Below, piece by piece: positions 27,267-29,906 of a stretch of DNA of 64,000 bases. This DNA comes from Amniculibacterium aquaticum (GTDB taxonomy: Bacteria > Bacteroidota > Bacteroidia > Flavobacteriales > Weeksellaceae). The position numbers and the translations under genes are program-made. The notes under the pieces are model-generated. The model did no database searches. It saw only the letters and a program-made list of their open reading frames with translations, and had not been told where the DNA came from. Location: contig NZ_REFA01000010.1 of NCBI RefSeq assembly GCF_003852705.1, positions 1 through 64,000 on the forward strand, given 5' to 3'. How positions within the stretch are numbered: the stretch's first letter is position 1; the number at the start of each line of letters is the position of its first letter.

Positions 27267-28025
27267 ATGAAAATTATCTCTTACAATCTCAATGGCATTA
27301 GAGCTGCCATGACCAAAGACCTTACCGGATGGTTGCAATCCGAAAACCCCGATGTAGTAGGTGTGCAAGAAACCAAAGCCAGTCCCGAACAGATCGATAC
27401 AAAAGCTTTGGAAGCGTTAGGATATTATTGCTATTGGTTTTCTGCACAAAAAAAAGGATACAGCGGTGTGGGGATCTTAACCAAACAAAAACCCAATCAT
27501 ATCGAATACGGTTGTGGCATTGAAGAATACGATGCCGAAGGCCGAATTATCCGAGCAGATTTTGATGATTTTTCCGTTCTTTCCGTTTATGTGCCATCGG
27601 CTTCCAACATCGAAAGATTGGATTTTAAACTCCAATTTGCAGAAGATTTCCTAAAATACATCAACACAATTCAAAAAGAAGTTCCGAATTTGATCATCTG
27701 TGGCGATTTTAATATCTGTCATGAAGAAATAGACATTCACAATCCCAAGGGTTTAAAAAATGTTTCCGGTTTCTTACCGATTGAGCGAGAGTGGATGACC
27801 AAATTTATGAAGGAATGCAATCTTACAGATTCTTTTAGAAACCAAAATCCAGGTGTACAGACTTTTTCATGGTGGAGTTACAGACAAAGTGCGAGAGCCA
27901 AGAATCTAGGCTGGCGATTGGATTATCATTTTGTGACCCAACCTCTATTGCCACGAGTGAAAAATGCTAGTATCCTGACCGATGTGGTCCATTCCGACCA
28001 CTGTCCGGTAGTGATAGAAATATAA
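27267..28025 (+). CDS. xth: Exodeoxyribonuclease III / AP endonuclease
   Basis: Cleaves DNA at abasic sites and removes blocking 3' ends in base excision repair. It has the exonuclease-endonuclease-phosphatase fold with SYNLNGIRAAM (Asn), VVGVQETKAS (Glu metal ligand), IICGDFNICH (Asp/Asn), GWRLDYHFVT and the final VHSDHCPVVIEI (Asp-His). The length of 252 residues is normal for the ExoA/Xth class. It is a single-gene unit, convergent with the pyrimidine gene, with a shared terminator between. Confidence 0.95.
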   Translation: MKIISYNLNGIRAAMTKDLTGWLQSENPDVVGVQETKASPEQIDTKALEALGYYCYWFSAQKKGYSGVGILTKQKPNHIEYGCGIEEYDAEGRIIRADFDDFSVLSVYVPSASNIERLDFKLQFAEDFLKYINTIQKEVPNLIICGDFNICHEEIDIHNPKGLKNVSGFLPIEREWMTKFMKECNLTDSFRNQNPGVQTFSWWSYRQSARAKNLGWRLDYHFVTQPLLPRVKNASILTDVVHSDHCPVVIEI

Positions 28026-28077: not shown

Positions 28078-29439
28078 TTAAGCTAATGACTTTTCATAAG
28101 CTTCCCAACCGGCTATTTTGTAGTGTAAAGCCGATTTTTCGATATCTGTAGATTTGTAGATGCCTCTGCCAACAATCATAAAATCGGTGTGCAGGTTTTT
28201 AAAAACATGTTCCGGTGTGTTGTATTGCTGACCTTTGCTATCTCCTTTGCTGTCCAAATTTACACCTGGTGTGAAAAGCAATAAATCTTCTGTGAGGGGT
28301 CTTTGAGAAACTCCTCCGAAAACATTCGGATGGCTAAGAGCAATTTTCAAAGCTTCGTCTTGGTAGTTTTGGTCGGTAAGTGTGCCTTTAGAAGACATTC
28401 CCAGTATGGCAACCACACCGACATTACGGAAGCAGTCCAAACTTTCGTAACCGCCAATGACTTGTGAGGTTACAAAGTCGGCCCATTCAGCAATTCTGTA
28501 GATTCCGTGGCTGAATTGCAATTCTTGGGTATTGCCGATGTCCGCAAACTTTCTATCTTCCATCAGCAAGAAATTGTGTTTTTCTGCCAAAGCTTTTAGT
28601 GGAAGTATGGTGGTTTCCATGTCAAAATCCGAAAGAATATCGATGTGGGTTTTTAGCGCAACAATATGCGGACCTACTTTTTCTGCCAAATCCAAAAGTT
28701 CTTTGGTGGTCAGTACATCCGCAGAAGCAATAAGGTTGGATTTTTTCTCAAGAGCAATAGAGATGATTTTTTTTGAAAGAGAATGTTCGGAAATTTCCAT
28801 TTTTTTCTCGTAGCTCAATCTTTTTTTCTCTTCGAATTTCACCACATTACCCGCTAAGAAATCGTTGATTCTGCCGATTTCATCTTCTAAAAGATGACCT
28901 TCTTCTTGCAAAATACTGCATACTTCTTGTATGGTGAACAGGGTGTGTACACGATAACCTTTGCTTTCTAGCAATTCTTTACCGCCTTGTCCTCTGTCCA
29001 AGACCACAACAACATCAGAAACTTTTATGCCTTCGTTTTCAATTTCAGGGATGGTTTCCAAAAGGGATTTTCCTGAAGTAATCACATCTTCAACCAAAAG
29101 ACAGTTTTGTCCTTTTTGGAAAAGACCTTCAATTAATTTTTTTGTGCCGTATTGTTTGGCTTCTTTTCTTTTGATGATGAGGGGCAAATTGCTTTCAAGC
29201 GACATGGCGGTAGCCATAGGTAGTGCTGCATAAGGTACACCGCAGATTAAATCGAAATTGTCCAACGGCAACATGTTCAGCAAGTGATTGGCCAGGTTTT
29301 TAAGGATTTTTGGATCCGAAGCCAATGGTCTTAAATCTACATAAAATGGACTTTCTATACCGCTTTTTAAGGTGAATTGTCCAAACTTGATGATGCCGTG
29401 TTTGTAGCATTCTAAAAAGAATTCTTTTTTATTTTCCAT
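28078..29439 (-). CDS. pyrEF: Bifunctional orotate phosphoribosyltransferase / orotidine-5'-phosphate decarboxylase (eukaryote-like UMP synthase)
   Basis: The last two steps of UMP synthesis in one chain. Residues 1-~200 are OPRT with the PRPP loop LLVEDVITSGKS (~115-125). Residues ~215-453 are OMP decarboxylase with the catalytic Lys-Asp-Lys-Asp set K263 (ALKTHIDIL), D295, K297 and D300 (EDRKFADIGNT). These motifs match the eukaryotic type (yeast Ura3 has FEDRKFADIGNT and LKTHVDIL), not the usual bacterial DxKFxDIPNT. The domain order is that of animal UMPS. Most bacteria keep separate pyrE and pyrF. An old transfer from, or to, eukaryotes is possible. Confidence 0.95.
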   Translation of the reverse strand: MENKKEFFLECYKHGIIKFGQFTLKSGIESPFYVDLRPLASDPKILKNLANHLLNMLPLDNFDLICGVPYAALPMATAMSLESNLPLIIKRKEAKQYGTKKLIEGLFQKGQNCLLVEDVITSGKSLLETIPEIENEGIKVSDVVVVLDRGQGGKELLESKGYRVHTLFTIQEVCSILQEEGHLLEDEIGRINDFLAGNVVKFEEKKRLSYEKKMEISEHSLSKKIISIALEKKSNLIASADVLTTKELLDLAEKVGPHIVALKTHIDILSDFDMETTILPLKALAEKHNFLLMEDRKFADIGNTQELQFSHGIYRIAEWADFVTSQVIGGYESLDCFRNVGVVAILGMSSKGTLTDQNYQDEALKIALSHPNVFGGVSQRPLTEDLLLFTPGVNLDSKGDSKGQQYNTPEHVFKNLHTDFMIVGRGIYKSTDIEKSALHYKIAGWEAYEKSLA

Positions 29440-29493: not shown

Positions 29494-29530
29494 AAATAAA
29501 AAAGTCGTCAGTTTTTTTCTGACGACTTTC
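29494..29530 (-). terminator. Terminator after the DUF1232 gene
   Basis: An 11-bp perfect stem (29501-29511 with 29519-29529). Read on the minus strand it is followed by a T-run, and it lies 3 bp beyond the stop codon. Confidence 0.88.
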
Positions 29531-29532
29531 GT

Positions 29533-29871
29533 TTATTCAACAATTTCAGCTTCTTTAATTTTTAGATCCGGATTCTTGTCGTTTTCCCACTCTTCAAAAC
29601 GGTCGGCTTCTTTCATTAAAAAAGGGATGGCAAAGGCCAATAACGCAAGGTCATCCGCAATTCCAATGAGGGGGATCCAATCGGGAAGTACATCGATGGG
29701 AGATATGAGATACAAGAGAATGAGTCCCGGTACAAAGAGGTTTTTCTTGCCGGGTTTGTATCCACCTTTAGAAAAAATGGATTTTAACATTCTAATAATG
29801 ATGGGCAGTTTCTGTAAAAACCCTTCATGCTTGATTGCTTCTCTAGCAATTTTGAATTTTGAATACTTCAT
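29533..29871 (-). CDS. DUF1232 (YkvA-family) small membrane protein
   Basis: The signature FVPGLILLYLISPIDVLPDWIPLIG, then DDLALLAFA, defines the DUF1232/YkvA family of small integral membrane proteins with unknown role. One hydrophobic region covers residues ~55-95. A TTG start at 29901 would overlap the last 3 bases of a perfect -7 box (29899-29906, minus), so the ATG at 29871 (MKYSKFKIARE) is preferred. It is a single-gene unit with its own terminator. Confidence 0.85.
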   Translation of the reverse strand: MKYSKFKIAREAIKHEGFLQKLPIIIRMLKSIFSKGGYKPGKKNLFVPGLILLYLISPIDVLPDWIPLIGIADDLALLAFAIPFLMKEADRFEEWENDKNPDLKIKEAEIVE

Positions 29872-29898
29872 TTTGTGTTTTGGTATCTTTTTTCTTTG

Positions 29899-29906
29899 CA
29901 AAGATA
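29899..29906 (-). promoter_or_regulatory. -7 box (TATCTTTG) of the DUF1232 gene
   Basis: A perfect TAnnTTTG on the minus strand, 27 nt before the ATG at 29871. It decides against the upstream TTG start. Confidence 0.6.

Follow-up and report, generated by a model that had tools for sequence, protein, structure and literature searches.

UMP is the precursor of the cell's pyrimidines, and the enzymes that make it, OPRT (PyrE) and OMP decarboxylase (ODC, PyrF), are organized in several ways among the relatives of the gene described here, a pyrE-pyrF fusion of Amniculibacterium aquaticum (Weeksellaceae). The UMP synthase (UMPS) of animals and plants shares with it the domain order, the active-site residues and both folds (human OPRT, PDB 2wns; the ODCs of human and Coffea arabica UMPS, 2qcd and 8u0z, both fold matches), but the bacterial protein is 43-44% identical to these enzymes and belongs to a different clade in the trees of ODC and of the concatenated domains. 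Yeast Ura3 has an ODC of the same type, with the motifs EDRKFADIGNT and LKTH[VI]DIL, but is unfused, and Ura5, the OPRT of yeast, belongs to a different type (E ~1e-14). The OMPDC-OPRT fusion of cyanobacteria, kinetoplastids and oomycetes (PRK05500) also carries the two activities on one chain, and the OPRT domain of Leishmania is related to ours at 38% identity; as related in a passage of PMC2705460 that cites Makiuchi 2007, the domain order of that fusion is reversed, with ODC before OPRT, an order that the A. aquaticum protein does not have according to Pfam and NCBIfam. The ordinary bacterial PyrE and PyrF, such as those of E. coli and Listeria, have the same folds and the same reactions as those predicted for the fusion, but they are encoded by separate genes, are 23-31% identical to it and are joined to it by a long branch. 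The best NCBIfam match of the OPRT domain is the orphan PyrE of Chlamydiaceae (NF010382/PRK13809; 202 bits against a cut-off of 208 bits), which is reported to occur without pyrF (PMC3091639), whereas the A. aquaticum OPRT is fused to an ODC. In the open-licence literature we came across no account of bacteria with an OPRT-ODC fusion, which is weak evidence of novelty.

Domains, active sites and genomic setting of the fusion

The gene lies in a 64,000-nucleotide stretch of contig NZ_REFA01000010.1, hereafter the window, and its features are collected in Table 1. Pfam places Pribosyltran at residues 60-156 and OMPdecase at residues 234-437, NCBIfam gives the order pyrE, then pyrF, and the AlphaFold model and its fold matches agree with an N-terminal OPRT and a C-terminal ODC on one chain. 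A chance ORF or frameshift artefact was ruled out, as the frame stays open in 318 family genomes.

Table 1. Features of the fusion gene and its flanks, in positions of the window.
Feature	Position	Strand	Remarks
pyrE-pyrF fusion gene	28078..29439	-	453 aa; predicted bifunctional UMP synthase
OPRT domain, residues 1-198	28846..29439	-	phmmer match 15-195 to human OPRT
LLVEDVITSGKSL, residues 114-126, which from general knowledge of PRTases we take to be the PRPP-binding motif	29062..29100	-	from sequence
ODC domain, residues 205-453	28081..28827	-	
LKTHIDIL motif, residues 262-269	28633..28656	-	includes K263 (yeast K59)
EDRKFADIGNT motif, residues 294-304	28528..28560	-	D295/K297/D300 (yeast D91/K93/D96)
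Strong hairpin with T-runs, candidate bidirectional terminator	28020..28070		fold energy -23.1 kcal/mol, z -7.8
Terminator-like hairpin	29500..29530		by position and T-tail only; count not above shuffles

When aligned with yeast ODC, residues D241, K263, D295, K297, D300, S349, Q404, Y406 and R425 of the fusion protein match D37, K59, D91, K93, D96, S154, Q215, Y217 and R235, respectively, so that the catalytic Lys/Asp array and the phosphate-binding residues are present, and the equivalents of all of these except yeast Y217 were found to be invariant in 36 fused proteins. The OPRT half contains both the loop (RKExKxYGT) and the PRPP motif in alignments, with R91, K92, K95 and D118 invariant across the 36 fused proteins and, within the PRPP motif, G123 and S125 likewise. 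The AlphaFold model (mean pLDDT 91.2, pTM 0.73) is confident in its domains and less so in their mutual orientation; its best PDB folds are human, coffee and yeast ODC together with human OPRT, and it matches human ODC at a TM-score of 0.92 and human OPRT at 0.91 of target length. By sequence, the nearest solved structures are yeast ODC (E 1.4e-56), the human and coffee UMPS ODCs, and human OPRT (E 1.9e-52), with bacterial OPRTs reaching only ~1e-18. The ODC domain is 47%, 43% and 27% identical to the yeast, human and E. coli enzymes, respectively, and the OPRT domain is 44% identical to human and 31% to E. coli.

On the strength of these conserved residues and folds, the protein is predicted to be a UMP synthase with both activities. 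Its N-terminal OPRT would join orotate and PRPP to give OMP, which its C-terminal TIM-barrel ODC would decarboxylate to UMP, placing the last two pyrimidine steps on one chain that, by analogy with the human UMPS domains, would be expected to dimerise via both domains. In the 2.55-Mb genome (99.8% complete), the fusion is the single PF00215 match, with no other ODC. Six further proteins match PF00156, which we read from their ORFs as putative Hpt, Prs, Apt, PurF, Upp and ComF, and among the PF00156 proteins of the genome there is no stand-alone OPRT. Dihydroorotate dehydrogenase and an ATCase-like PyrB are both encoded, so the pathway reaches orotate, and the fusion, as sole ODC and sole OPRT, is predicted to be the cell's only UMP synthase. 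At the locus itself, the strong hairpin separates the fusion gene from a convergent exonuclease III-like gene (27267-28025) and the terminator-like hairpin separates it from the upstream gene (29533-29901, minus strand); an own transcript is consistent with both.

A first-pass annotation of this DNA had anticipated much of the above. It described a PyrE-PyrF fusion in the animal and plant domain order, as Pfam and NCBIfam confirm, pointed to the ODC motifs LKTHIDIL and EDRKFADIGNT, which are indeed of the DRKFADIGNT type and unlike E. coli PyrF, and took the neighbouring genes to be transcribed separately, in agreement with the two hairpins. Its claim that the fusion is the only UMP synthase gene in the window is true and widens to the whole genome, and the absence of stand-alone pyrE and pyrF that it proposed to look for is borne out for this genome. 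Near identity to yeast Ura3 holds for the motif but not for the ODC domain as a whole.

Distribution in Weeksellaceae, Bacteroidota and other phyla

Every good genome of the family carries the fusion gene (306 of 306), which is present in 31 of 33 genera; across all 320 family genomes there are matches in 318, and both genomes without a match are incomplete. Frameshifts or stops break the fusion in two genomes of one large genus, one of which is only 75% complete, making sequencing error likely in that case. In a sample of 395 genomes of the phylum searched with the ODC Pfam model, high-scoring frames of ~452-461 aa were confined to Weeksellaceae; in the rest of the Bacteroidota, nearly every genome had an ODC with a weaker score. 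A long ODC frame of 384 aa in this phylum was rejected as an ordinary ODC of the KRGDIGNT type, lengthened by additional open frame upstream, and apparent extra eukaryote-like ODCs in two members of the order, PF00215 proteins from its other family, were set aside as hexulose-phosphate synthase-like with isomerase-like genes adjoining.

Among Saprospiraceae, 4 of 80 genomes have the fusion, which indicates that the gene moves or is lost between bacteria. Two Saprospira plasmids of 53-55 kb (NC_016936.1 and NZ_CP116809.1) carry it in full, the CCB-QB6 plasmid beside dihydroorotate oxidase, guaB and guaA, and S. grandis Lewin has an additional short ODC fragment gene beside KilA-N genes. Annotation can mislead here, since one Saprospira fusion is named pyrF alone in its record. 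Patchy outside Weeksellaceae and family-wide within it, the distribution fits a single acquisition or fusion in the ancestry of the family, together with the loss of its ordinary pyrE and pyrF genes and vertical inheritance from then on.

We also scanned a genome collection for DRKFxDIGNT with the condition that the next codon begin with a base other than C. This design left out Weeksellaceae, in which every locus read has Gln directly after the motif. Outside the family, at least 108 stretches were recovered, and those read, among the matches listed, all hold an ODC of the DRKFxDIGNT type. Carriers include at least Chlamydiota, Gammaproteobacteria (among them isolates of Piscirickettsia and Fangia), Patescibacteria, Verrucomicrobiota, Dependentiae, Cloacimonadota, Chlorobiota, Ignavibacteriota (Ignavibacteria), Calditrichota, Spirochaetota, Bacteroidota (Saprospiraceae) and DPANN archaea, with the qualification that many of the bacterial entries are MAG contigs whose taxon names may be wrong. 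About half of the matches listed have OPRT fused to ODC in this order, and many of the unfused ones have the matching OPRT gene directly upstream of ODC, often overlapping its start by 4 or 7 nt, which makes fusion a small step.

Several of these loci deserve separate mention. Nine from Chlamydiota MAGs, one named Chlamydia sp., hold adjacent eukaryote-like pyrE and pyrF; older papers describe pyrF as absent from all Chlamydiaceae and pyrE as an unexplained orphan (PMC3091639). At six Patescibacteria and similar loci, the eukaryote-like ODC is paired with an OPRT that matches that of Weeksellaceae weakly (E 1e-11 to 1e-16), so OPRT and ODC do not always travel together. Seven loci from MAGs named Gammaproteobacteria or Bacteroidota carry a fusion of the Cloacimonadota/Ignavibacteria type, reflecting either transfer or misnamed bins.

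Placement in trees and rival histories

In the concatenated tree, Weeksellaceae lie inside a fused clade made up of Bacteroidota only (100/99), which also includes Saprospiraceae and Chitinophagales and appears as the same grouping for each domain. A second fused clade, here FCB/Spirochaetota, unites Cloacimonadota, Ignavibacteria and Spirochaetota (100/100). Both domains of the fusion are far from the PyrE and PyrF of E. coli and Listeria rather than inside the normal bacterial clades. Eukaryotes were represented by PDB sequences only (human, coffee and yeast for ODC; human and Leishmania for OPRT). The human protein groups with the unfused bacterial pairs in the concatenated tree (100/95), the OPRT-only tree agrees on this placement, and the ODC-only tree puts coffee and yeast there as well as human. 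Human ODC, taken from a variant chain with a possible difference from wild type at one position, is on average 55% identical to the unfused ODCs; its averages for the Bacteroidota and FCB fused clades are 42% and 44%, respectively, and human and coffee ODC reach up to 65% identity to unfused bacterial ODCs. When the ODC tree is rooted with E. coli and Listeria, a distant outgroup with long branches, its base lies among unfused Patescibacteria.

Given that human and coffee UMPS and yeast Ura3 stand among unfused bacterial pairs, the "eukaryotic type" of the first-pass annotation is a misnomer for a patchy bacterial type that eukaryotes share, found in many bacterial phyla and in DPANN archaea. 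With the gene family-wide in Weeksellaceae and its relatives scattered over many bacterial phyla, the DRKFxDIGNT type looks like an old bacterial enzyme type and not a recent eukaryotic loan. Of the two origins the annotation had offered, recent transfer between domains of life is unsupported, in view of the gene's presence in all good family genomes and the Bacteroidota clade recovered in ODC, OPRT and concatenated trees; retention of an ancient form is nearer the mark, with the retention having taken place within bacteria.

We hold with good confidence that this sole UMP synthase goes back to a bacterial pyrE-pyrF pair that fused and was inherited vertically, and that the animal and plant fusion is most likely separate. 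A co-directional, often overlapping pair would have become one frame in the ancestor of the Bacteroidota fused clade, in an event possibly common to the FCB/Spirochaetota clade, and in Weeksellaceae the fusion would have replaced the ordinary pyrE and pyrF and descended vertically since; animals and plants would most likely have fused the same kind of gene pair in an event of their own. The direction and number of the fusion events, and the replacement of the ordinary genes, are what we infer.

Had the family ancestor instead taken an already fused animal- or plant-type enzyme from a eukaryote, with divergence afterwards, the shared domain order and the eukaryotic best PDB matches would be accounted for, and AU tests tolerate a Bacteroidota+human clade (p 0.235 for the concatenated data; p 0.07 for ODC alone with coffee), as they do FCB+human (p 0.073). 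The free trees nonetheless set human, coffee and yeast ODC apart from the Bacteroidota clade, and human ODC is closer to unfused bacterial ODCs (55%) than to this fusion (43%), which together make direct transfer from eukaryote to bacterium unlikely. With Saprospiraceae and Chitinophagales inside the same clade and a second fused bacterial clade in existence, we consider a eukaryotic donor to the family ancestor very improbable, and a sister relation of Bacteroidota and eukaryotes is disfavoured. It is also unlikely that all OPRT-ODC fusions, in Bacteroidota, FCB/Spirochaetota, animals and plants, stem from one ancient fusion that later split to give the pairs of Chlamydiota, Patescibacteria and Gammaproteobacteria. 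Identical order in all groups, the sufficiency of two fused/unfused state changes by parsimony on the unrooted concatenated tree and the sister position of the Bacteroidota and FCB fused clades when the ODC tree is rooted (82/91) speak for such an origin, but a single clade of all fused proteins including human is marginally rejected (AU p 0.043), the outgroup places the root among unfused Patescibacteria, and with genes that overlap in an operon, fusion could easily occur more than once.

A further reading, in which Chlamydiota, Legionellales-like Gammaproteobacteria, Dependentiae and Patescibacteria obtained their unfused pairs from eukaryotic hosts, so that the type would be eukaryotic in the end and the fused bacterial clades older offshoots, draws on the host-associated lifestyle of many carriers and on the closeness of human and coffee ODC to these pairs. 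Because the carriers also include groundwater Patescibacteria and isolate bacteria, the genes form a bacterial two-gene operon and not a fusion, and unfused Patescibacteria are basal in the rooted tree, we rate it as quite unlikely. Returning to fusion of a bacterial pair, we tentatively extend it to eukaryotes: their UMP synthase may itself derive from a bacterial overlapping pyrE-pyrF pair, with bacteria having joined this pair, in identical order, in one or more independent events, although the odds of this fall a little short of even. We put forward just as tentatively that the pair would be of the kind carried today by Chlamydiota, Patescibacteria and some Gammaproteobacteria, and that Weeksellaceae may carry one such fusion.

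Meaning for Weeksellaceae and for UMP synthase

The enzyme itself is ordinary housekeeping, a known kind doing a known job, and its distribution matters more than the enzyme. Many bacterial phyla contain the kind of ODC and OPRT that is commonly labelled eukaryotic; the two genes are often tightly paired, and in at least two bacterial clades with good support they are fused. This distribution offers context for the orphan pyrE of Chlamydiaceae, which has puzzled the authors of genome papers (PMC3091639), and Weeksellaceae and the other carriers together provide a set of bacterial genes for comparison when the origin of UMP synthase in eukaryotes is considered.
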